Position numbers and translations under genes: made by a program. A stretch of DNA of 64,000 nt from Balneola sp. (GTDB lineage: Bacteria > Bacteroidota > Rhodothermia > Balneolales > Balneolaceae), in contig RHLJ01000001.1 of assembly GCA_003712055.1 (NCBI GenBank), forward strand, positions 434,001 through 498,000, written 5' to 3'. Below the pieces are notes generated by a model. The model did not search any database. It was not told where the DNA came from and worked only from the letters and a program-made list of their open reading frames with translations. The first letter of the stretch is position 1, and every line of letters starts with the position of its first letter. Shown piece after piece: positions 18,438 through 36,095 of the stretch.

Positions 18438-19811
18438 TTACCGCTCGATATTATATTTTTTCATTTTATTGTACATATGGCTCCGCTGGATTCCAATTGC
18501 TTCTGCCGTCTTCGAAATATTCCAGTCGTTTTTTTCCAATTGTCTTGTAAGGAAGATTTTTTCAGATCTATCTTTGAATTCCTGAAAATCATTTACAGAA
18601 TCAGATAGCCCCTTTAATTCCTCACTTTTTGATTCTTTAGTGAGGAACATCTGTTTAATTATTTTCGCTGAAATTTGATCTTCAGGTGTTAAAATAGCCA
18701 GTCGTTCCACTGCATTCTGTAATTCACGCACATTTCCGGTCCAACTATATTCTGTGAGTTCTTTTAACCCATCTTCAGTAAAATTTACAGCCGAAAGGGA
18801 GATATCTTCAGCTTTAAGTTTCTTTAGATATTCACTGGCTATGGTTGCTATGTCCTCCTTTCGCTCCCTTAATGGAGGCACCTGTACAGGAATTACACTA
18901 ATTCGATGAAATAAATCTTCTCTGAAGTTTTTTTGCCTTATTTCTTCTTCCAGATTTTTGTTAGTAGCAGCAAGTACACGTGTATCTATAGAAATAACCT
19001 CACTTCCTCCTACTCTGGTAATTCTGTGTTCTTGTAATGCCCTAAGTACTTTTGCCTGGGCATCCAATGGCATATCCCCTATTTCATCAAGAAATAAGGT
19101 ACCACCAGTAGCTTGTTCAAACTTCCCTGCCCGGGCAAAATCAGCTCCTGTAAAAGCTCCCTTTTCATGTCCGAATAATTCACTTTCTATTAACTCTGAT
19201 GGAATGGCTGCACAATTTACTTCTACAAAAGGACCATTACTCTTTGCGCTCTTCTCATGGATCCAGCGAGCTACCAATTCTTTTCCCGTACCGTTTTCTC
19301 CTGTAATAAATACCCTCGATTTTGTAGGTGCTACTTTGTCGATAACCTCTTTTACTTTGGTAATAGCTTTACTGGATCCTATGATTTCCTGGACTTTAGG
19401 AAGCTTCTTTTTTATCTGTTTAACTTCCTGGCTTAAGTCTCTGAGCGACAATGCGTTTCTTACAGCAACTAATAAGTGATTTAAATCAGGGGGCTTTTCC
19501 AGGAAATCATGAGCTCCTTGCTTGGTAGCTTCTACCGCAATTTCAATAGTACCATGTCCCGATATCATAATGACCGGGAATTCATGCCCTTTTTCTCTAA
19601 TTCCTTTTAGGGTTTCAAGACCATCCATTCCCTGCATTTTAATATCGAGTAAAACAAGGTCTACTCGTTCTCTTTCAACTAATTCAAGTGCCTGAGCCCC
19701 ACTTTCAGCGATTGAAACCTTGTAACCTTCGAACTCCAGAATCTCTTTCAGAGTACTTCGAATAGCTCGTTCATCATCGGTAACAAGAATATGTGCTTTT
19801 GAATCAGCCAT
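18438..19811 (-). CDS. NtrC-type sigma-54-dependent response regulator
   Basis: A three-domain transcription activator. The receiver domain (about 1-115) carries Asp56 as phosphoacceptor in LVLLDIK; the AAA+ domain (about 140-370) has Walker A GENGTGKE and the sigma-54-contact loop GAFTGA; a Fis-type helix-turn-helix closes it (KTAEAIGIQRSHMYNKMKK). Start ATG 19811 is chosen over TTG 19817. The intact GAFTGA loop predicts real sigma-54 dependence. No histidine kinase is adjacent, so it is an orphan regulator; the same operon holds ptsN, dacB and folD. Confidence 0.94.
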   Translation of the reverse strand: MADSKAHILVTDDERAIRSTLKEILEFEGYKVSIAESGAQALELVERERVDLVLLDIKMQGMDGLETLKGIREKGHEFPVIMISGHGTIEIAVEATKQGAHDFLEKPPDLNHLLVAVRNALSLRDLSQEVKQIKKKLPKVQEIIGSSKAITKVKEVIDKVAPTKSRVFITGENGTGKELVARWIHEKSAKSNGPFVEVNCAAIPSELIESELFGHEKGAFTGADFARAGKFEQATGGTLFLDEIGDMPLDAQAKVLRALQEHRITRVGGSEVISIDTRVLAATNKNLEEEIRQKNFREDLFHRISVIPVQVPPLRERKEDIATIASEYLKKLKAEDISLSAVNFTEDGLKELTEYSWTGNVRELQNAVERLAILTPEDQISAKIIKQMFLTKESKSEELKGLSDSVNDFQEFKDRSEKIFLTRQLEKNDWNISKTAEAIGIQRSHMYNKMKKYNIER

Positions 19812-19823
19812 CCTCAAAGCTAA

Positions 19824-23742: not shown

Positions 23743-24566
23743 TGGAATTAGAGTTTTATAAAATGGAAGGCGCCGGAAACGACTTCGTTGTCCTTGACAA
23801 TAGAAAATTAGGTTTGCCACTTGAAGAAATAATCGCCCTTTCTCCTCAACTTTGTGACAGAAAATTCGGAATAGGAGCGGATGGATTATTAGCTCTGGAG
23901 AACTCATCGTTACCAGATGTTGACTATACTATGATATACAGAAATGCAGACGGTAGTGATGCCGGAATGTGTGGAAACGGAAGCAGGTGCCTTGCTCTTT
24001 TTGCTGCTCATAACGGATTTAATAAAGAACAAACTTTTAATGTTCATGAAGCTATTTACAAAGCTACAGTCGATATAGAACAAGAGCAGGTGAGTGTAAG
24101 CTTTCCGGATGTAATAGCTCCAAAAAAATTGAACATCAATAAGAAAAACTATCTTCAGGTATACACTGGAACGGAGCATATAATCAGCTTTGAGGATTTG
24201 GATAGGCTCGAAATTGAAGATGAATTAGTGGAAGAAGGTCGATTTATCCGAAACCATCCAGTACTTAACCCTCCGGGTACCAATGTCAATTTTGTATGTC
24301 CAAATGAAGACGACTCCATGTATGTTCAAACCTACGAGCGCGGCGTGGAGGATTTAACACTTGCTTGTGGTACGGGGGCCATTGCCTCAGCAATAGGGAC
24401 TCATTTTATGCAGGAATACAACACAGGAGAATTTAGTTTTGAAGTTATCGTTAAGGGAGGAACGCTCTCGGTTCATTTCAGCTTCGATGAAGCAACAAAT
24501 ACCTATTCAAATATAAAACTCAACGGGCCTGCGCGTTTTGTCTATGCCGGTATCATTAATTTGTAG
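23739..24566 (+). CDS. dapF: Diaminopimelate epimerase
   Basis: Converts LL- to meso-diaminopimelate for lysine and peptidoglycan. The catalytic cysteine pair is present: MCGNGSRC (about Cys77 from the second Met) and LACGTGA (about Cys209). The N-terminal MEGAGNDFVV motif, which binds substrate, is intact. Two adjacent ATGs (23739 and 23742) are possible and differ by one residue. The 275-residue length is normal. It overlaps the end of holB and the start of the plug-like lipoprotein gene, which makes a compact four-gene run. Confidence 0.96.
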   Translation: MMELEFYKMEGAGNDFVVLDNRKLGLPLEEIIALSPQLCDRKFGIGADGLLALENSSLPDVDYTMIYRNADGSDAGMCGNGSRCLALFAAHNGFNKEQTFNVHEAIYKATVDIEQEQVSVSFPDVIAPKKLNINKKNYLQVYTGTEHIISFEDLDRLEIEDELVEEGRFIRNHPVLNPPGTNVNFVCPNEDDSMYVQTYERGVEDLTLACGTGAIASAIGTHFMQEYNTGEFSFEVIVKGGTLSVHFSFDEATNTYSNIKLNGPARFVYAGIINL

Positions 24567-25830
24567 ATTACTAACTATTCCCTTCTTCCTATTTCTGGTA
24601 TCCTGCTCGAATACAGAAAACCAATTAGTATCCACCCCAGTAACAACCACAGATAATACAAGCCTTCTTCTGGTTCCGAATCAATTAAAAGCTCCTCCGT
24701 CTATCAAGGGTGTGCAGCTTTATAGAAAAGGCAATCAGGCCAGTCTTCCTATTATCGAGCTGAATAGTGAGAACAAATTGATTCTTGAATTTGATGAGCT
24801 AACCACTCTATCTGGTCAGTTTATCATTCAGTTCAGCCATAGAAATCAAGACTGGTCAAAAAGCGGATTACCTGATCCATGGATAATGGAGGGTATTAAT
24901 GAACTTGTGTTATTTGGTGGTGAACCGAATAGGACTAATAGGCCAAACTACTTTCATTATTCATTGGAGTTTCCAACCAGAGAAATTGAATTCAAAGTTA
25001 GTGGAAATTATTTATTACATGTATTGGACTATAACTCCGGTACAGAATTATTCAGCCTCCCCTTTTTTATTTCAGAACAAGAAGGTGAGCAGGTTCATCA
25101 AGTTGAAACTCTATTCAACCAGGGACAGAATGGACAGGCTTTAGACCAGTTATTCGGAGAATACCGTTATCCTGACTTTGTTGAGTTCCCCCAATTCAAT
25201 TTGTCTTACACTTTTACTCAGAATCGTTTTTGGGGACAATCTCGAAAAGCTGATCAATATAGTTTCACAAATGAAGGGGAAACAGAATTTCACATTTCGA
25301 GAGGAAACGCCTTTCCAGCAAGTTTTGATTTTACCAGTCTGAATCTCTCTGAACTAAGTCTACAAAACCCTTCTATTTTTAGCATAGACCCAACAGCAAT
25401 TCCAACCGAAGTAATTTTAAAAGATGATTTTCTAAACTTCCTTTCCGACCCCTCTCCCACCTTTAATGCTGAATTTGGGCTTCCTGATAAAAGCCTTCTT
25501 GCTAGATATTCAGAGGTCAGCTTCCGATTAAACACTGGTGGAAATACAACGATTAACGATTTCTACCTGATCGGAGATTTTAACCAATGGAGCATTTCTG
25601 ATAGAGAAAAATTGAGATATAACCGAGAATTAGGGGTCTGGGAAACAAAACTGCTCATCAAGGAGGGGAATTACTCTTACAAGTATGTAACTCTTGAGGG
25701 AAAAGAAATTGACCCCATTCTATTAAGTGACTCCATAACAAAACGGGATCAGGAGTATGTGAGCTTTGTATACTACCTTGATCCCGATTTACAATACGAT
25801 CGCTTGCTACATGCCAAGCTTTTTCAATAG
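24544..25830 (+). CDS. Type IX secretion system plug-like protein (DUF5103 family lipoprotein)
   Basis: A 428-residue lipoprotein from ATG 24544: signal CRLLTIPFFLFLVSC with lipobox LVSC. Residues about 55-185 match the DUF5103 N-terminal domain as I know it (KGVQLY...ILEFDELTT...SGNYLLHVLD), and the C-terminus (about 340-425, FYLIGDFNQWSISD then KEGNYSYKYV) is the E-set/glycogen-binding-like end of the family. In Flavobacterium, a member closes the SprA channel of the type IX system on the periplasmic side. SprA itself is not in the window. The gene overlaps dapF by 23 bp. A TTG at 24538 is the alternative start. Confidence 0.78.
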   Translation: MPVSLICRLLTIPFFLFLVSCSNTENQLVSTPVTTTDNTSLLLVPNQLKAPPSIKGVQLYRKGNQASLPIIELNSENKLILEFDELTTLSGQFIIQFSHRNQDWSKSGLPDPWIMEGINELVLFGGEPNRTNRPNYFHYSLEFPTREIEFKVSGNYLLHVLDYNSGTELFSLPFFISEQEGEQVHQVETLFNQGQNGQALDQLFGEYRYPDFVEFPQFNLSYTFTQNRFWGQSRKADQYSFTNEGETEFHISRGNAFPASFDFTSLNLSELSLQNPSIFSIDPTAIPTEVILKDDFLNFLSDPSPTFNAEFGLPDKSLLARYSEVSFRLNTGGNTTINDFYLIGDFNQWSISDREKLRYNRELGVWETKLLIKEGNYSYKYVTLEGKEIDPILLSDSITKRDQEYVSFVYYLDPDLQYDRLLHAKLFQ

Positions 25831-25836
25831 TCGGTA

Positions 25837-28800
25837 TTAGAAGTCTATACCAATTGAGAAATAGTGGATTGGATTGCCTTCAAAACCATTTCTACCATAA
25901 GACCATCCTATATCATATCGGAAAGGAAGTCCGAAAACGATGGTTCTTAATCCAAATCCCGAACCAATAAGAATGTCTCCATCTAAAGCGGTAATAGGAT
26001 TTCCATCATTACCTATTATCGGTTCACCATTGGTTGGTACTTCTGTTGTGAAGTTATCCGCATCTTCATCGTAATAAATGATTCGCTCCTCACCGATTCT
26101 AAAACTAAGATCAGCATCATTAACATTAAAATTAATTGTTTCATTGGCCAGGTTAACCAAAGATACATTGATGTTTTGTCCCCAAGCAGTACCAACATCA
26201 ATAAAGAATGCTCCTGTAATGTTGTAAAGAGGTAGTATAGGAACTGCTCCAGGAACTAAAGCCGCAAATAATGGGAACCTGAACTCAGTATTGATGAGTG
26301 CAAATTTGTTTCCATAAATAGTATTGTACTCATGACCTCTCAGAGGAACAGCAGGTAACGTAAAGAAAGTATCAGCAAGGCGCTCTAAAGGAATTCCATT
26401 GTCTGACCATCTTTGATTAATCCATCCTAGCATACCTCCAAGGAAATACGTTTGCGAATCACGGCCGAATGAAGCACCACTCGAACCTCTAAGTGCGAGT
26501 GAATAACCTAAACCTATATTGAAATAGCGCCTGAAATCACCAAGAACAGATGCAAAAGCCGGGGAATCTTCTCCAACACCAGGACTCCCTGATATACCGA
26601 TAGAATATCTGGTTCCACCCATGGGAGTAATAAAGCCCGGAATATTAAGAGTAGCATCTTTTGTATAGGTAACTTGAGGATACAATAATGAACTCTTTAG
26701 ATTCTCTGAATTAATAACCGTATTCGGATCAATAAATAAAGCGGTAAATGGAGTAGTAACTACATTGTAATCTCTGGTTAACCCTATCCATGTAAGGCTG
26801 GCATCTACCCTTCTGAATTTGTCAATTGGGTATTGCAAACTTAATCCCCCACCAAATGTTCTGAAGCGTAATAACTCTCCTCCAAAAGTCTGGTATTGTC
26901 GTGATGAGTGGAAATAGGAAAGAAATACATTCGTTCTCTTTTTCAGGTATCCGTATTGAATAGAATAATTACTATTTCTTAAGTCAGTTTGGAAGTTTGA
27001 TCCCAATGAAAGCTGGTGATCTCCTAATAAATCACTAATCAAAAATTGAATTGGTGCATAAGCTCCATAGGTTGACAATCCGACCGAAGGGCTGTAAGCA
27101 ACATCGGTACTGAACCTTAGCCGGTAATCTCTTGGTACGTACCTTCCATCGTCGGTGACATTGTCTTCAAGATCAAAAATAAACTCATCTATTAGAGTAA
27201 GTGTACTATCCAAAATTACTTCTTCTGAGAACACATAATTTCTGAAATCAATCTCACCACTTTGTTCAAAAGTGCTGGCCCGTTCTTCATCAGTCATTTG
27301 AGCCTCTTCTTCTTCCTTCTCAATTTGAGTCCTCTCAACAGCATTCACAATCCCGACATCAAACATTTCCCGGGCATATAGAGTAGCAGGCACTCTTTCT
27401 TCTTGTGTCTCCTGAACCCTTCGCTGTGCCCAGTAATTTTTTACCAAAGGCTCAGTTTTCTTTCTTGAAAAAGGTGATTTCAAAAGAAAGATATCCAGAT
27501 ATCCTTCATTTATTGCTCCAATAGCAATTCTTGAACCGTCGGCACTCATACTAAACTGAGAAACACCAGCCTGAAGGTCGGTAAGTGCATATGCTTTCTT
27601 AGTCTCGAAATCATACTCATAAATATTCTGAATACCATTTTCATCAGAATTGAATGTTAATCTTCCAGAGCGTGTCACAGCAGGTTGCTTTTCACTCCAA
27701 TCACTGGAAGCAGTAATTCGCTCAACTTGTTTTGTATTAATGTTAATCTGATAGATATCTGTTTGGTAGAAATCCAAATCAGCTAATAAACGATATTCTG
27801 TTTTATAGGTATTCGTTTCGATCTTTTCTCCCCTGTCCGAAACAAAGAAAATAGATTCAGAATCGCTTGACCATGCGGGCTGGAAATCAGAGAAAAAATC
27901 CTGGGTTAAATTTGTTAATTCTTCAGTATCAAAGTTGTAGACAAAAATATCTTGATAAGGACCGATGTTACCATCAAAAGCAATCTTTCTTCCATCGGGT
28001 GACCATGCCACAGATTCTATTGCATCAATCGTCTCAAACTCCAGCTTCTCCACTTCTTTAGTCCGATAATTTACCAGAGCGATATCATCCTTCCCTTTCC
28101 TTTTCGTTGACAACGCTATGAATTCACCATCGGGTGACCAAGTAATATTTGGGTTTAGAATATTTAGTTCTTCAAAATCTGGATTATCCTCGCCTCGAAC
28201 TAATGTTTTAAGTTTTCGGCCATTTAATGCATCGATAACAATTACATCGAAATACCCTCTGCCATTTGTGATAAATGCAATCCTGTCTCCTTGGGGTGAA
28301 ATAGTCGGGCTGGTATTGTATGTACCAAATTCGCCTCTTCGGGTCATTAGCGTAGAGATACTCTTTGCGCTTTCTCGTTCTGCTACTTCAGGGAAGTACC
28401 GCTCCTTAAGGCTTTGCTCCCAGCGTTCGGATAGTTCATCAATAGTAAGACCTAAAGCATCTGCAAACCCATATTCAATACTACGGGAAGTCTTTATACG
28501 ATTTAATATTTCCGCAATTTTTTCTCTACCATATTCTTCAACAATAAAATTCCAAACAGACTGTCCTCCTCTGTATGCATAGTAATTTCTCAAATACCGA
28601 ATTGGAGGCAAATATCCATTAATAACGGCATCCCTTATAAACATATCTGTATTTGTATCCCATCCAAGTGCTGTATACTCTGCAAGCCCTTCTTCGAACC
28701 AAAGTGGAAATACCAATTGAATATTATTCTGAATTATCGACTGGATGTTTCCACCATAGAACATGTCGTTGAACACAGCATGCACAAGCTCATGATGCAA

Positions 28801-29214
28801 TGTTCTTCTGAAGTCATTATAGTCTCCCATAAATGGAACTGTCATCCTGTTTTTCCACTTATCGGTTACCCCACCTATTCCCTCGGTACCAGTCGGGTCA
28901 AGTGGTACGACATTTGTCTGAGAGAAATCGTTATGAGAATCATAAACTATTAGAGGAATACGACTTACAATTTCATGGTTAAAATCTTCCGAAAGTTGTT
29001 TGTAAGCGGATTCCAGGCTTTGGGCAGAAAACTCAGCAAGCTCGTAATTTTTCTCTCCGTAATAGTAAATATCAAAGTGCTTCGATTGGATGAATCTCCA
29101 CTCAAAATTTTCATATTGAACACGGTTTTTCCCAAACGGAAAGTACTGTGCTTCTGCTGATGTAATACCAAACCCAACAGCTAAAATCAGAATAGTTACA
29201 AACTTTGCTTTCAT
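25837..29214 (-). CDS. Peptidase (HExxH) / TolB-like propeller / BamA-like barrel outer membrane protein
   Basis: A 1125-residue exported protein with three visible parts. After a signal peptide (about 1-22) comes a gluzincin-like peptidase region: HELVH at 141-145 and WFEEGLAEY at 172-180, with Glu175 as the likely third ligand. Residues about 280-600 hold repeated TolB/PD40 units (SPQGDRIAFITNGRG, SPDGEFIALSTKRKG, SPDGRKIAFDGN, SSDSESIFFVSDRG). The C-terminal half (about 690-1125) is strand-rich, ending YDIGWSYGRNGFEGNPIHYF and a terminal Phe, as in Omp85/BamA-family barrels; no POTRA domain is seen. It is last in the rqcH-aroK-aroB-tamB-rnr run. A surface or secretion protease-chaperone role is inference. 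Confidence 0.78.
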   Translation of the reverse strand: MKAKFVTILILAVGFGITSAEAQYFPFGKNRVQYENFEWRFIQSKHFDIYYYGEKNYELAEFSAQSLESAYKQLSEDFNHEIVSRIPLIVYDSHNDFSQTNVVPLDPTGTEGIGGVTDKWKNRMTVPFMGDYNDFRRTLHHELVHAVFNDMFYGGNIQSIIQNNIQLVFPLWFEEGLAEYTALGWDTNTDMFIRDAVINGYLPPIRYLRNYYAYRGGQSVWNFIVEEYGREKIAEILNRIKTSRSIEYGFADALGLTIDELSERWEQSLKERYFPEVAERESAKSISTLMTRRGEFGTYNTSPTISPQGDRIAFITNGRGYFDVIVIDALNGRKLKTLVRGEDNPDFEELNILNPNITWSPDGEFIALSTKRKGKDDIALVNYRTKEVEKLEFETIDAIESVAWSPDGRKIAFDGNIGPYQDIFVYNFDTEELTNLTQDFFSDFQPAWSSDSESIFFVSDRGEKIETNTYKTEYRLLADLDFYQTDIYQININTKQVERITASSDWSEKQPAVTRSGRLTFNSDENGIQNIYEYDFETKKAYALTDLQAGVSQFSMSADGSRIAIGAINEGYLDIFLLKSPFSRKKTEPLVKNYWAQRRVQETQEERVPATLYAREMFDVGIVNAVERTQIEKEEEEAQMTDEERASTFEQSGEIDFRNYVFSEEVILDSTLTLIDEFIFDLEDNVTDDGRYVPRDYRLRFSTDVAYSPSVGLSTYGAYAPIQFLISDLLGDHQLSLGSNFQTDLRNSNYSIQYGYLKKRTNVFLSYFHSSRQYQTFGGELLRFRTFGGGLSLQYPIDKFRRVDASLTWIGLTRDYNVVTTPFTALFIDPNTVINSENLKSSLLYPQVTYTKDATLNIPGFITPMGGTRYSIGISGSPGVGEDSPAFASVLGDFRRYFNIGLGYSLALRGSSGASFGRDSQTYFLGGMLGWINQRWSDNGIPLERLADTFFTLPAVPLRGHEYNTIYGNKFALINTEFRFPLFAALVPGAVPILPLYNITGAFFIDVGTAWGQNINVSLVNLANETINFNVNDADLSFRIGEERIIYYDEDADNFTTEVPTNGEPIIGNDGNPITALDGDILIGSGFGLRTIVFGLPFRYDIGWSYGRNGFEGNPIHYFSIGIDF

Positions 29215-29232: not shown

Positions 29233-31386
29233 TTATACAGGAATAAAATCAATTTGCCTTTTTTGGTGATTAACACTATCCACTTTCACATGGATTTCGT
29301 TTCCTAATTGAAACTTTTTCTTCGAAGATCTTCCGACTAGCTGATGACTTTTCTGATCATAAAAAAAGAAATCTCCTTTCAAATCACCAACACGGATCAT
29401 CCCCTCACAATGTATATTTTTTAGGTCAACAAAAATACCTCTTTCAGTAACGCCGCTGATTACGCCTTGAAAGGTTTGCCCGATTTTGTCGCTTAAAAAT
29501 TCCACCTGTTTAAGTTTAATAGAATCGCGCTCGGCATCAACTGCCACACGTTCTCTTTCGCTACAATGTTCACCGTGTTTTAAAAGAGAGTCGTAGGAGT
29601 AAGAAGTAGTACCTTTTGCATACTCTTTAAGAATACGGTGAACAATCACGTCAGGGTAACGGCGAATTGGGCTTGTAAAGTGTGCATAATGTTCAAAACC
29701 AAGACCAAAATGACCAATATTTTTGGGACTATACTCTGCTTTAGCCATTGCTCTTAAAGTAAGCTCATTTACAATGGTTTCAACTGCCGTGCCCTTAACC
29801 TCATTTAAAAGCTTGTTAATCCCCTTTGGAGATAAGGAATTATTAACTGAAAAGTGAATCCCTAATGGAGAAACTTGCTCCGCTACCGCGCTCAATTTTT
29901 TAGCATCTGGCTTATCATGGATTCTGTAGAAAAAAGGAAAAAGATTCTTTGACAACTTTTTTCCCGATTGTTTTCGGAGGTTATCAATATGGATGGATAC
30001 GGTTTTATTTGCCATTAGCATGCATTCCTCAATGAGCCGATGAGCAAACTTCCGTTCTTTGAGGATAACTTCAATTGGTTTTCCTTTGCTATCAAGTACA
30101 AAACGTGGTTCAGGGGAATCAAAATCAATTGCTCCTTCTCTGAATCGCTTTTCCATCAATGTTTTGGCTAGCTTACCTGCCAGGTGTACCTCTTTTTTAT
30201 ATTCATGATCAGCACCGTCCAAGATCTCCTGAGCTTCTTCATAGGTAAATCTTTGCTTAGAATGTATTATGGTTTCTTCAATAGAATAATCAACAAGGTT
30301 TCCTTTGTCGTCAATTTCCATAAAACAACTATAGGTAAATTTGTCTTCATTCGGTCTTAAACTGCACAAGCCATTACTTAGTCGTTCAGGAAGCATTGGT
30401 ATTACCCTATCAACCAGGTAGATACTTGTACCTCGTTCGAAAGCTTCTTTATCTAACACTGTTTCCGTTTTCAAATAATGGGTGACGTCTGCAATATGCA
30501 CTCCGAGATAATAATTACCTTGTTCGGTATAGGAAATACTAAGAGCATCATCAAAATCCTTAGCGTCAGCGGGATCTATTGTGAATACCATTTCAGACCT
30601 TAGATCCCTCCTGCTACTTACATCGTCCTGAGTTATTTCCTCAGAAATTTCCTCAGCATATTTCTCTACCTCGGGAGGGAATTCGGCTGTAAGTTCATTT
30701 TCAGCTAGAATAGATAGAATATTTGCATCGTTACTGCCAGACTTCCCTAATACGGAAGTAACCACTGCTTCTGGTAGCGCTTGTGGATGAACCCATTTCT
30801 TTAATTCGAATGTGACTTTATCATTGTTCTCAGCACCATTCAAATTTTTTGATAATACATAAAAATCTGTGTGAGCTGATTTTTGATCAGGCTCGATAAT
30901 AAAGGTCTTGGTACCGGTCTTCTTGAGTGTTCCTACATAAAACTCTTTCCCTCTTTTTAGTATTTCTTCAATCTTACCCTGAGGCTGACCTGAATACCGA
31001 TTGGTTCCACTTATTTTAATACTAACCCAATCATCCTGAAGAGCGAGACCAACATCTCTTTTCGATATTTTAACGTCTTCATCTAATCCTTCAACCGTTA
31101 CAAAACCCATTCCTGATCTGGTAATTTGGATTTTACCTTCCAGTAGATCCGGTGATTTCCTGGGTTCTTTGTTTCCTTTCTTAATGGATATACTATTACC
31201 GTCTTTTATAATTAGCCTCTTTGACGCCAGACTATTTATTGCCTTATCTAATCTTTTAAGCTCTTTCTTACTGCTTAATAAAAGTACATCAATGACGGTT
31301 TGTTTTGGAAGTCTTTTATTTGGACTGTTTTTGACAAGGTCCATTACAATTTCTTCGAGGGTGCTAAGCCGCTGGCTTCTACTCAT
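29233..31386 (-). CDS. rnr: Ribonuclease R
   Basis: A processive 3'-5' exoribonuclease that unwinds structured RNA. The 717 residues begin with a winged-helix segment (about 1-65), then cold-shock OB folds (about 80-215), the RNB catalytic domain with FTIDPADAKDFDDAL at 268-282 (Asp271, Asp277, Asp279 and Asp280) and a C-terminal S1 domain (about 632-715, TFQGVISGVTERGIFVDL). No lysine-rich tail is present after S1, unlike E. coli RNase R. Its start codon touches the tamB stop. All catalytic aspartates are intact. Confidence 0.95.
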   Translation of the reverse strand: MSRSQRLSTLEEIVMDLVKNSPNKRLPKQTVIDVLLLSSKKELKRLDKAINSLASKRLIIKDGNSISIKKGNKEPRKSPDLLEGKIQITRSGMGFVTVEGLDEDVKISKRDVGLALQDDWVSIKISGTNRYSGQPQGKIEEILKRGKEFYVGTLKKTGTKTFIIEPDQKSAHTDFYVLSKNLNGAENNDKVTFELKKWVHPQALPEAVVTSVLGKSGSNDANILSILAENELTAEFPPEVEKYAEEISEEITQDDVSSRRDLRSEMVFTIDPADAKDFDDALSISYTEQGNYYLGVHIADVTHYLKTETVLDKEAFERGTSIYLVDRVIPMLPERLSNGLCSLRPNEDKFTYSCFMEIDDKGNLVDYSIEETIIHSKQRFTYEEAQEILDGADHEYKKEVHLAGKLAKTLMEKRFREGAIDFDSPEPRFVLDSKGKPIEVILKERKFAHRLIEECMLMANKTVSIHIDNLRKQSGKKLSKNLFPFFYRIHDKPDAKKLSAVAEQVSPLGIHFSVNNSLSPKGINKLLNEVKGTAVETIVNELTLRAMAKAEYSPKNIGHFGLGFEHYAHFTSPIRRYPDVIVHRILKEYAKGTTSYSYDSLLKHGEHCSERERVAVDAERDSIKLKQVEFLSDKIGQTFQGVISGVTERGIFVDLKNIHCEGMIRVGDLKGDFFFYDQKSHQLVGRSSKKKFQLGNEIHVKVDSVNHQKRQIDFIPV

Positions 31387-34300
31387 TAATTCCCTGGTAC
31401 TGATGAGGTTTGATTTTCTGTTATTTGATCTTCCTGTTCGTCGTTACTATTCTTTCGCCCGAAAAGCTTTCTAAATGGTCTGGTTATTTTTTTCAAAAAT
31501 TCATCCCAGCTATTAAAGTTAACCTCTGCTTCTAGGCCTAACCCGTTTATATCCTGGCCTTGTTGGTTTTCATCGCCTGAACCTAAATTACTAAAAGTTG
31601 GATCTTGCCTGTGAAAAGCAGTCACCGATAAGGTTTGGTTAATTCGATAGGTCGCACCAATATCCCCAATATTTGATTGTGCTCCAGTAATCTGTCCTTC
31701 CCTGCTAAGTATGATACGGTCATTATATAACCTCAAAGCAACCGCTAGATCAACATTGTTATAGGTATTCAAATTAAAATCGATATCAAGACTACCAACA
31801 TCACTTCTTAATAACGAGTTTATCTGATTAGAAAGTAACGGACTTATTACCTGGCTCGAAAGTAAAGGATTTAACACCGCACCACTTCCCGAAAAATTTT
31901 CACTAAAAGAGTCGGTAGTACTGGTCGTAGCAGTAGTAGATGGGATAAAATCTCCCATTAGCAGAAAACTTGTAGCCTGAATAAGCTTCTCATCTTCATT
32001 TCTGTTCAATGTGTTTATTTGAGCACTCAGTGCAGTGTTCTGTCGAGCTTCGAACGTATTGGGTAATCGGAAGAAGAAATTATTTTCAATACTGCTAAGT
32101 GTCCCACCCACATTTAATACCAACTGAACAGGTACCCTTTGAGAATTATCCTGATCAATATCTGACCTGGATTGTGTTAATGTATTAATGTCTGGTCTTG
32201 CTTCATAAAAAGCATTTAGATTTAAGCTCGCATCAGTCGGGTTTCCATTCCAGGTAATAGTACCTCCTCGTTCCAGCTCAAATCTTCTTGCAAATATATC
32301 ACCACTTACAAATTGATAATTACCTCCTGATATATCGAACTGCCCAAACATTGACAGCTCTTCATCTTGTAATCGTATTTGTAATCGACCCGTACCATCT
32401 GCAGTAATCGCATCTCCGGTAACCGGATCAAATATTAGCCTCACCGTCATTGGTTGAAGAGCTATAAACTGCAAATCCATGGTAAAGCGTTCAGTAAATG
32501 TACGCTCAAACGGATCTTCATCTTCTTGTGCAAGAAAAGCTTGTGCTCCTGAAGTAGTGGTATTATCAATTCTTCCTAATGATGAAAAATCATCTACAAA
32601 ACGGATGAATTTATTATCCTCATCAAATTCAGTTTCTTCTAACAGAGGAATTCCAATATTTGAGAAATCAGAAATATAAACGGGGGTAACTGTTTCCAGC
32701 ACTGGATCCAAATTTGTACCAGTCAATCGAATCGTACTTGAACCATATGCGTCTCCAAAAAATGGAACATCCTGATCCAATATGCTATTCAAGAATTGGA
32801 ATTCATCCATTTCAATGAGCAGATCCATGGAATGTAGCTTACTAAAATCGTTAAGATTATACGTTCCACTTACTATTGCAGCGCCACCAGATGGATCTAT
32901 AACGAACACATCTTCAAAATTGAGTCCTTGATCACGACTAAAACTCAATGAACCAATACCATAATAGAAAGTATCCAAAAAACGGGGCCTCATATACACT
33001 GCATCGTCCATACCTATATCATAGTTAATATTGAAGTCATAATCTTCAAGATTCCCCCATACAAGTCCACTTCCGTTGGCTTTACCTGACATTTCAGAAA
33101 ACACTTTAGGAGCGATGAAGGGTATGATCCATAGGTCTACATTCTCAAAATCTAAATCAAACCTGAATAGTGAATCTGTTTCCGGGAACCCGTTATTGTC
33201 TGGCGCAAGAATATACCCCTTCAAACTGATATCCTGACCTGTTCTGTTATTCCGGAAATAATAATCAGGGTATTTGGTTGAATCAGTATCTACGATTATT
33301 TCAGTATCAAATCGGTTTAATGGTTGATTGAATTCACTTAATACAGAAATGTCGCCAACCACATTATTGTCCAAACCTAAACCCAGGATGTTTAACTCTC
33401 CTTGAAGTGTCGGAGACCGAGTAAGAGATCGAGTTGTAAACTGACCATTCAAGTCCCCAGAGAAGTTTATTCGGCCATTTATCAAATCTGAAATTCGTTC
33501 CAGATCTACATTTTCTATCTGGTAATTCACAGAATCGGTTGCATCTGCACTTAAAATACCTTCAATCGCAATATTCTCGTCAAAATTGCTTAGCTCAAAA
33601 TCCTGGAATCTTAATTTTTCATCGGCCAGATACTGCACTGACGGAGTTTCCACCCCTTCCCATAAGTATAAATCACTACCCAACGCAAATTCGTGAATGT
33701 AAGCTGTTATTGCTGAATCCGTAAGCGCTATACCACTTGTTAGTTCGAATTTTGAATCTTCAGCTATTTCATCAATCGTATGAGTATAAATGATCGAATC
33801 TTCCTGCATATCAAATTCAAAAGAGAGGCCTTTTGCATCAAGCAGACCTGTACTAATTGAACCAAGATCGAGCTGAGCCTGTAACCCGGAAAATGATTTA
33901 AGAGTCTCTGAGCTTCTAAAACTTCCGGTCACCTGTAATGCAAGTGAATCTATAGTAGTTTCCTTAAAACTGATTGATGGATCATTTATGGAAGCATTAA
34001 AGAGAAGTCTATTAGGATTCCCATTTACATTAGATCTAATTTGAGCTGCTGATTGAATTGAAGGGAATGCAGGCACATAGGCTTTTATGAAGTCCAGGTT
34101 TTTTATGGAAGCGTTCATAGTAAAATTCTGATCCGAGCTAATCACCAATGAATCCGAATCAAATGTATCTACTGTTGTTAATAGAACTTCCTCATCAACT
34201 CTTTCCTTAAAATAAGAACTCCAATAAGGGGCCATTCTTACTAGCTCATTAAGTTGAAAGCTACCCTGCATAGACATATCAAAAGCGGTAGAAGTGAACC

Positions 34301-36095
34301 TTAATGCTCTGGTTGCATTGCCAGGCTCATTTAAATCCATATACACCTGATGAGTTGGAAGAGTGTCTTCTCCTATAGTAGCAAATGGTACATCGATCGT
34401 AAGTTGCCCATATACATTATCCCAACTATTGCCTTTCAAAAAGATTTCGTACTCCAGATTTGCGAACACTGAATCTAATGACTGAGCCTGCGTCAAGCCT
34501 TTCAAATCAACATTTTCTCCACTTCCTGTAAACTCCAGACCAGGTATTGAATCTGTCATATCAATAGTGCCCCTCCCTGTTAGGTAAGCAGAGGGTGAGG
34601 TAAACATCAAAGACGGACGGATAATCCCTTCGTTCCATGTTCCTTCTGCTGAAAGAGTATCAAAATTTACCCTGTTTAAGTTACCATCAGAGAAGAAGAA
34701 ACTAGAAGAACCAGAAGCGTTTCTTACGCTTCTCCAGTCATCAGAATTTATTGCAAAAGAACCGGTTAAATGACTTTCAATTATTTGATCCGAAATAAGT
34801 CCTCCTAAATTTATATCAGTAAAACTTCCATTAAGATCTATACTAGCATACTCAGTCATTCCCAGGTCAAAATTAGTAATCACCTCGCCCACAGAACTCA
34901 ATACTTCAACCTCTCCTGCTAACCCCGATCTATTTCCACTGATCTTTACATCAAAACTGGAGGTTGTAATAACATCTATTTGAGGCTCGCTTAATTGAGG
35001 TACGAATTCCGAAAATTCTGAACTATCTACCAGGACGTTTTCTAAATCAACCTCAAACTGAAGACTTTCTAAATTCAAGGGAGATTTGACGAAGCCATAC
35101 CCATCAATCCCGCTTCGTCCCATAAAGAAATCGAATTCCTCAAACCATAAGGAATCAAGACTTCCATTACCTTTAAAATTCGCATAAAGTACTTTATCAA
35201 ACCTCTCATATTCAGGATAAAATCTGGTAATCAAACCAGGATTTACAAGAAGTTCACTTATTCTGTAGGAGATTTCGGAACTCTGAATCTGCCCGAGAAA
35301 ATCATCTTTTAAAAAATCTACCCCATTAAACTCACTACTGAATTCAAGTGCTGAACTTCCTAACCTGATATTAAATGCATTGAATTCCAGGTATTGCTCA
35401 TCGTTAAACACCTGCCCAAATATATTCGCGTTTTCAATATCCAGTTCTGGCATATTGAAACTGAAGCGATCTATATCAAAAAATCTACTTTCTCTTTTGT
35501 TTTCAATAAATATTTGGGCATTAATATCCCGAATTGTCAATGTATCCAGTCCTTCTTGAGCAGATTCTTGAGGGTTATCAAAAATTACCACCCCCCCACT
35601 TATTGTTGCTGATGGTACCAGTACTTCAAAATTAATGCCTTGAGCTTCATTATTGGTTGAATCGAAAGTATCGTTCTCACAAGGTTCAATAGCATACGCT
35701 AACGATCGTCCTTCTCTATCTCGAAACAATACCACAGGATCCTTAATATCAAGATGGTTAATGATGAGCTGGTTGCGAAATAATGCCCAAAAATCTACCG
35801 AAGCGTTTACCGTATCAGTAGAAAAAACCGGCCGGAATGACGTAGAATCTTGATATATGGCTACATTCTTAAACTCGAAATCAAAAGGAATTGCTCCTGA
35901 AAACTCTCCTAGCTTTAATACTCCCTTGTATTGGTTGTTAAAATTATCCTCAATCTTAGATGCTATATAACTCTTTGATGCAGGTAATTGTAGAATTGCA
36001 AAACCAAGGGTAGACAAAACCACACAAACCAGAATCAATACCCCTAGTATGGTCCAGAAAAGCTTCCAGGTTCTATGTACCCATCTATATGCCAT
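31386..36095 (-). CDS. tamB: TamB / YtfN-like translocation and assembly module protein
   Basis: A 1569-residue inner-membrane-anchored AsmA/VPS13-like bridge protein. One membrane helix near 14-36 is followed by a very long beta-taco region rich in alternating hydrophobic and Ser/Asp residues, and the C-terminal DUF490 domain (about 1130-1520) with RLQIRLQDEELSMFGQFDIS and GGTITWNGNPTDASLNLNAFYEARPDI. TamB-like proteins move phospholipids or help insert outer membrane proteins. The rnr gene and the large barrel protein follow it; no POTRA-bearing TamA is present. Confidence 0.9.
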   Translation of the reverse strand: MAYRWVHRTWKLFWTILGVLILVCVVLSTLGFAILQLPASKSYIASKIEDNFNNQYKGVLKLGEFSGAIPFDFEFKNVAIYQDSTSFRPVFSTDTVNASVDFWALFRNQLIINHLDIKDPVVLFRDREGRSLAYAIEPCENDTFDSTNNEAQGINFEVLVPSATISGGVVIFDNPQESAQEGLDTLTIRDINAQIFIENKRESRFFDIDRFSFNMPELDIENANIFGQVFNDEQYLEFNAFNIRLGSSALEFSSEFNGVDFLKDDFLGQIQSSEISYRISELLVNPGLITRFYPEYERFDKVLYANFKGNGSLDSLWFEEFDFFMGRSGIDGYGFVKSPLNLESLQFEVDLENVLVDSSEFSEFVPQLSEPQIDVITTSSFDVKISGNRSGLAGEVEVLSSVGEVITNFDLGMTEYASIDLNGSFTDINLGGLISDQIIESHLTGSFAINSDDWRSVRNASGSSSFFFSDGNLNRVNFDTLSAEGTWNEGIIRPSLMFTSPSAYLTGRGTIDMTDSIPGLEFTGSGENVDLKGLTQAQSLDSVFANLEYEIFLKGNSWDNVYGQLTIDVPFATIGEDTLPTHQVYMDLNEPGNATRALRFTSTAFDMSMQGSFQLNELVRMAPYWSSYFKERVDEEVLLTTVDTFDSDSLVISSDQNFTMNASIKNLDFIKAYVPAFPSIQSAAQIRSNVNGNPNRLLFNASINDPSISFKETTIDSLALQVTGSFRSSETLKSFSGLQAQLDLGSISTGLLDAKGLSFEFDMQEDSIIYTHTIDEIAEDSKFELTSGIALTDSAITAYIHEFALGSDLYLWEGVETPSVQYLADEKLRFQDFELSNFDENIAIEGILSADATDSVNYQIENVDLERISDLINGRINFSGDLNGQFTTRSLTRSPTLQGELNILGLGLDNNVVGDISVLSEFNQPLNRFDTEIIVDTDSTKYPDYYFRNNRTGQDISLKGYILAPDNNGFPETDSLFRFDLDFENVDLWIIPFIAPKVFSEMSGKANGSGLVWGNLEDYDFNINYDIGMDDAVYMRPRFLDTFYYGIGSLSFSRDQGLNFEDVFVIDPSGGAAIVSGTYNLNDFSKLHSMDLLIEMDEFQFLNSILDQDVPFFGDAYGSSTIRLTGTNLDPVLETVTPVYISDFSNIGIPLLEETEFDEDNKFIRFVDDFSSLGRIDNTTTSGAQAFLAQEDEDPFERTFTERFTMDLQFIALQPMTVRLIFDPVTGDAITADGTGRLQIRLQDEELSMFGQFDISGGNYQFVSGDIFARRFELERGGTITWNGNPTDASLNLNAFYEARPDINTLTQSRSDIDQDNSQRVPVQLVLNVGGTLSSIENNFFFRLPNTFEARQNTALSAQINTLNRNEDEKLIQATSFLLMGDFIPSTTATTSTTDSFSENFSGSGAVLNPLLSSQVISPLLSNQINSLLRSDVGSLDIDFNLNTYNNVDLAVALRLYNDRIILSREGQITGAQSNIGDIGATYRINQTLSVTAFHRQDPTFSNLGSGDENQQGQDINGLGLEAEVNFNSWDEFLKKITRPFRKLFGRKNSNDEQEDQITENQTSSVPGN

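Follow-up and report, generated by a model that had tools for sequence, protein, structure and literature searches.

What does an Omp85-type outer membrane protein do with a zinc peptidase and a beta propeller in the place of POTRA domains, and why is it encoded beside tamB? The question is raised by a 1125-residue protein encoded in the window, the stretch of 64,000 nucleotides of Balneola sp. DNA that was analysed. Our reading is that it is an Omp85 protein for envelope assembly that lacks POTRA domains, carries its own protease and probably works where the TamB pathway reaches the outer membrane. Features of the locus are collected in Table 1.

Table 1. Features of the peptidase-propeller-Omp85 locus, in window coordinates.
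Feature	Position	Strand	Evidence and remarks
Sigma-54 response regulator	18441-19817
T9SS plug protein gene	24538-25830		Convergent with the Omp85 gene; NCBIfam, 180.5 bits (cut-off 100)
Peptidase-propeller-Omp85 protein gene, 1125 aa	25837..29214	-	ATG start, no internal stop
Signal peptide (putative), residues 1-22	29149..29214	-	Cut near AEA-Q, no lipobox Cys; signal-peptide rules
Conserved stretch GKNRVQYxxFxW, residues 26-40	29095-29139
Gluzincin peptidase domain, residues 24-284	28363..29145	-	Pfam Peptidase_MA_2, AlphaFold2, fold search
HELVH zinc motif, residues 141-145	28780..28794	-	Family alignment
WFEEGLAEY, residues 172-180	28675..28701	-	Family alignment
TolB-like six-bladed beta propeller, residues 285-590	27445..28362	-	PD40, AlphaFold2, fold search
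Helical/disordered acidic linker, residues 591-690	27145..27444	-	Helices, then pLDDT <50 at 641-679
Omp85 16-strand membrane barrel, residues 691-1125	25840..27144	-	AlphaFold2, fold search and family profiles
LRGH, residues 958-961	26332..26343	-	L6 (V)RG(F/Y)-type motif of Omp85 barrels
YFSIGIDF, C-terminal strand ending in Phe (beta signal)	25840..25863	-	Sequence and family alignment
rnr (RNase R)	29233..31386	-	TIGR02063, 753 bits; 18 bases upstream of the peptidase-propeller-Omp85 gene
tamB-family gene (putative)	31386..36095	-	Shares one base with the start of rnr; weak NCBIfam TamB match, 4.1e-7

Domain anatomy

The initial annotation had described in this frame an HELVH motif, a downstream WFEEGLAEY, SPDG-type repeats and a terminal Phe, and had read them as a peptidase, a propeller and an Omp85-like barrel fused in one chain without POTRA domains. 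The motifs were all borne out in a minus-strand frame free of stops; the initial annotation had named no strand, and the plus strand of the same interval has stops throughout. The propeller repeats appear as WSPD at residues 359 and 404 and in weaker form as WSSD at 448 and SADG at 557, and residues 1-22 resemble a signal peptide of type I. The HELVH and SPDG motifs are not chance resemblances, because the corresponding Pfam families pass their cut-offs: Peptidase_MA_2 (PF13485) covers residues 71-270 at 47.9 bits (cut-off 32.4), with E 6.7e-14 for the peptidase segment alone, and the PD40 repeats reach 48.1 bits (cut-off 20.9). HELVH followed by E175 is the HExxH plus downstream Glu ligand arrangement of gluzincins, E175 in WFEEGLAEY being the likely third zinc ligand.

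A full-length AlphaFold2 model built from 31 relatives (mean pLDDT 75.6, pTM 0.72) comprises a helical peptidase, the propeller, a linker, helical and acidic, of poor model quality, and then the barrel. The peptidase domain was also modelled separately (pLDDT 88). A profile of the peptidase had no match among the sequences of solved structures, but the fold search matched its model to collagenases of Grimontia, Vibrio and Clostridium, in their catalytic part (Z 17.3, rmsd 4.0, 232 aligned), and next to M1 aminopeptidases. Propeller strands span residues 299-579 and align with TolB (Z 27.8, rmsd 2.3, 245 aligned), although the NCBIfam TolB equivalog model scores 112.8 bits, short of its cut-off of 343.15. 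At the C-terminus the model has the proposed membrane barrel, with 16 long strands between residues 701 and 1121 by our count, and its nearest folds are BamA (Z 22-24), the best being F. johnsoniae BamA (9n2d; Z 24.1, rmsd 3.8, 312 aligned). A Pfam search at E up to 1 returned no POTRA domain, and the segment before the barrel is made up of peptidase, propeller and linker. Family profiles, the AlphaFold models and the fold searches agree on the three segments, and we regard an anatomy of zinc peptidase, TolB-like propeller and Omp85 barrel, lacking POTRA, as close to certain.

Identity of the barrel and other Omp85 proteins of the genome

Searched by itself, the C-terminal 447 residues of the window protein matched nothing in Pfam, Omp85 (PF01103) included, and the assignment of the barrel needed family profiles. 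PF01103 matches 17 of 33 aligned family barrels, with a best E of 2.4e-17, and no other Pfam family does; in whole-genome searches, family ORFs of several relatives score above its curated cut-off, such as a 1062-residue ORF of genome G111 and a 1059-residue ORF of G206. The barrel profile also matches the sequences of solved BamA. Compared with proteins of the same genome, it gave P 96.6 for a TamL-like protein, 95.4 for another Omp85, 94.4 for TamA and 61.8 (E 7.7e-5) for BamA, against 0.1 for four control proteins. Within the L6-type motif, R959 and G960 are invariant in 31 full-length rows and in 33 barrel rows, the single exception in a larger alignment being locus L131, where LRA replaces the motif; D1006, G1008 and W1011 are likewise invariant in the 31 full-length rows. 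The C-terminal barrel of this family is an Omp85 barrel.

The same genome encodes a BamA with POTRAs (L002), a TamL-like POTRA-Omp85 (L003) and a 1252-residue Omp85 (L004, contig C4). A second TAM-like pair lies on contig C3 at ~285-292 kb, where a TamA-type POTRA-Omp85 (L001) adjoins a second tamB (L168). Because of this pair and the TamL-like protein, the TamB encoded in the window has other possible partners.

The Pfam family PF00149 is that of calcineurin-like phosphoesterases. It is carried by the "Metallo-Omp85" group of a 2014 survey (PMC4104836), a group which was considered for the window protein and is hence a different family; as described there, it is possibly the type to which L004 belongs.

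Distribution and probable loss of the zinc site

Matches to the protein, mostly full length, were found in 96 of 97 related genomes. Across a phylum-wide sample of the Bacteroidota group (in the GTDB sense), 257 of 296 genomes match at E 1e-10. Roughly 65 of the 257 matches are weak (families f24, f27, f25 and f46; E above 1e-25) and probably reflect the propeller only, f24 and f27 having no or weak matches only; about 190 of the 296 have a strong match by our row count. Families f24 and f27 may be the groups of Bacteroidaceae and Flavobacteriaceae on which laboratories mostly work, and their lack of strong matches could be a reason for the family having escaped study. Several genomes also carry paralogs with all three domains at other sites, and given this wide distribution and these paralogs the Balneola protein is a single ortholog within a family that is both large and old. 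The Salinibacter ruber plasmid pSR116 encodes a 633-residue peptidase-propeller protein without a barrel (L176:2929-4830), annotated as "basic secretory protein-like"; for Gemmatimonadota, a plasmid search for copies elsewhere yielded a propeller match only.

The zinc-site residues H141, E142, H145 and E175 are all retained in 107 of 122 aligned family members, and among the 108 rows with H141 the second His and E175 are each present in 107. A tree was built without the peptidase columns, by a quick method and unrooted, and in it 13 of the 14 rows of the tree set with a degenerate site fall together on the same side of one branch with support 100. The fourteenth, L160, sits on a long, uncertain branch as a separate second change. 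All 13 rows (L093, L096-L100, L157-L159, L161, L165-L167) have the three-domain layout intact; the named members are Bernardetia, Flexibacter, Cytophagales, Vicingaceae and Acidiluteibacter, all of which we take to be of class Bacteroidia. As HExxH gluzincins are the ancestral fold, we infer for this unrooted tree that the change was a loss rather than a gain.

This branch amounts to a natural experiment built into the family, with the zinc site gone and the architecture kept, and because one branch lost the site yet retained all three domains, the family must also have a non-catalytic role. An earlier proposal that the periplasmic part both binds and cleaves substrates may apply to the Balneola protein, whose zinc motif is intact, but binding and cleaving cannot be all that the family does, since the site is degenerate in one deep branch. 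The stretch GKNRVQYxxFxW, which directly follows the signal peptide, ranks with the best-conserved parts of the family; copies whose zinc site is dead keep it, and so does the copy without a barrel.

The same data bear on whether the enzyme works outside the cell. N-terminal domains of Omp85 proteins are normally periplasmic, as are TolB-like propellers, and this siting speaks against a reading in which the barrel carries the peptidase-propeller half of its own chain out to the cell surface, so that the peptidase would cleave external proteins there. A precedent does exist in the patatin-Omp85 protein PlpD, which according to the main text of the 2014 survey exports its lipase via its own Omp85 barrel (PMC4104836), and the nearest folds of the peptidase are secreted collagenases, with the barrel-less plasmid protein pointing the same way. 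A surface enzyme would nonetheless leave the retention of a dead peptidase domain together with the barrel unexplained, and we consider such export improbable.

A conserved tamB-rnr block

In the window, aroK, aroB, the tamB-like gene, rnr and the peptidase-propeller-Omp85 gene form a run in one direction. Same-position orthologs of the tamB-like gene match Pfam TamB (PF04357; 1.7e-32 and 2.1e-16), and by this sequence criterion the window gene belongs to the TamB family. The initial annotation had pointed to tamB in the same run, and this association holds well beyond the window: all 47 of the Balneolales loci whose upstream sequence reaches far enough show the order tamB, rnr, peptidase-propeller-Omp85 gene, and so do 20 loci in seven families (f18, f20, f23, f26, f38, f41 and f47) that belong to other classes than Balneola. 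In these 20 loci tamB was detected with a profile of the window gene. Single-sequence phmmer searches had made the linkage appear confined to Balneolales, a sensitivity artefact that the TamB profile reversed.

When all ORFs of the window were compared by blastp with the 20 linked loci, rnr and the peptidase-propeller-Omp85 gene recurred in 20 each, and tamB in 3 (20 by profile). The sigma-54 regulator was found in 2 of the 20, and no other window ORF was consistent there, so that the conserved block is exactly three genes. ORFs similar to the regulator by blastp neighbour the family gene in L139 and L141. In the sampled Rhodothermia other than Balneolales the gene has no linkage to tamB, and the same is true of the branch with the degenerate site and of several further families.

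The composition of the block also bears on the T9SS plug gene next door, which invites the idea that the Omp85 protein belongs to the type IX secretion system. The plug gene is present in 23 of 53 Balneolales loci (phmmer), but it lies on the opposite strand and was found in 0 of the 20 loci in which other families show the linkage (blastp with the window ORF as query), and we rejected this idea as scarcely credible. Close to its C-terminal end, the plug protein gives a weak AMPK1_CBM match.

For six genomes (G097, G111, G198, G140, G290 and G304) the sole Pfam-TamB protein is the one in the linked run. Several genomes in which the genes are unlinked, such as G247, G243 and G328, have TamB adjoining a different Omp85, one whose length resembles that of TamA. 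In the TamAB hybrid barrel, the last strand of TamB pairs with beta 1 of TamA, and the POTRAs hold TamB (PMC12800296). Outside Balneolales and f18, most TamB proteins encoded in the run end in an aromatic-terminated strand, e.g. GLKYRFEF, which by analogy may be suited to barrel pairing. Such a strand was seen in f20, f23, f26, f38 and f41, and Balneolales and f18 have a charged tail after the last strand.

Since essentially only tamB, rnr and this Omp85 gene recur outside the class, the link to TamB is better than a coincidence, though unproven. It has to be weighed against a free-standing Omp85 factor for assembly or quality control, or a BAM accessory, that makes no contact with TamB, its gene order only reflecting the joint expression of housekeeping genes for envelope and RNA. 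Many families keep the whole architecture with the gene away from tamB, the three-domain paralogs are sited elsewhere, and TamB has TamA and TamL as possible partners, all of which would suit such a factor. The main text of the survey by Heinz and Lithgow, which in 2014 defined the WD40-Omp85 subfamily by its TolB-like propeller, likens it to a BamA-BamB fusion (PMC4104836). Mere co-expression, however, would not usually hold a block together across classes while its flanks change, and we give this explanation somewhat less than an even chance.

Proposed function

We favour a mechanism in which the barrel would insert outer-membrane clients, or pass them on, where the TamB bridge meets the outer membrane; this TamB is encoded two genes upstream of the Omp85 gene. 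The TolB-like propeller may serve as a periplasmic docking platform in place of POTRAs, and the peptidase would remove stalled or misfolded clients in cis. A model for this last step is BepA, a zinc peptidase that acts in trans on BAM, where it either promotes or degrades LptD (PMC8423444). In the zinc-less branch, the peptidase domain may have been retained as a scaffold. For the whole chain, from the anatomy through client handling at the end of the TamB bridge, propeller docking and peptidase clearance in cis to the scaffold, we estimate a probability of roughly 0.4. Its parts differ in strength, and a role in envelope assembly or quality control is fairly likely.

Direct cooperation with TamB is a more tentative proposal, to which we would give somewhat under even odds. 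It is supported by the fixed gene order, the genomes with a sole TamB and the aromatic TamB ends. Against it, three interfaces between TamB and the POTRAs of TamA (PMC12800296) are without counterpart in this protein, and rnr, an RNA-decay gene, sits between tamB and the Omp85 gene. In F. johnsoniae, TamB was pulled down with the POTRA-bearing TamL, the two genes being in separate operons (PMC12045153), and the Balneola genome has both a TamL-like protein and its TamA-tamB pair. In the non-Balneolales Rhodothermia, and in many further families, the gene also lies away from tamB.

The peptidase-propeller-Omp85 protein, linked to TamB by gene order, is a conserved candidate for the barrel that would, outside Proteobacteria, receive the lipids or proteins which TamB delivers to the outer membrane. 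At its boldest, the proposal would make this a third kind of TAM in much of the Bacteroidota group, with TamB docking on a POTRA-less, protease-bearing Omp85 so that delivery and proteolytic quality control are combined in one machine. We think this extension rather unlikely; if true, the zinc-less branch would have turned its protease into a pure docking domain.

Comparison with known systems

A literature search, conducted chiefly outside subscription papers, found, beyond the 2014 survey, nothing on the peptidase-propeller-Omp85 combination, and the family is of a kind already named but, as far as was found, uncharacterised. Like the WD40-Omp85 proteins, it has a TolB-like WD40 propeller N-terminal to an Omp85 barrel and no POTRA; the zinc peptidase, the loss of the zinc site in one branch and the tamB-rnr neighbourhood are not part of that paper's main text (PMC4104836), with which we compared the family by description rather than member by member. 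The conserved tamB-rnr block and a peptidase with lineage-specific loss of its zinc site look new.

With the TAM systems, TamA or TamL and TamB, the locus shares an Omp85 barrel encoded beside a TamB-family gene; here, however, a propeller and a peptidase replace the POTRAs, rnr lies between the genes, and the link is known from gene order. BamA and BamB likewise offer a 16-strand Omp85 barrel and a beta propeller, and the closest barrel fold is a BamA, but in Balneola the two are in one chain without POTRA, the nearest propeller is that of TolB, and a peptidase is added. The likeness to TolB lies in the six-bladed PD40 propeller, which differs in its fusion to peptidase and barrel and in falling below the NCBIfam TolB cut-off. 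BepA (M48) is also a zinc peptidase beside an Omp85 barrel in the periplasm, as is proposed here; the parallel is a functional analogy only, as the Balneola enzyme is a Peptidase_MA, collagenase-like gluzincin fused in cis. PlpD, finally, joins an enzyme domain to an Omp85 barrel in the same way, with a patatin where the present family has a peptidase and a propeller.
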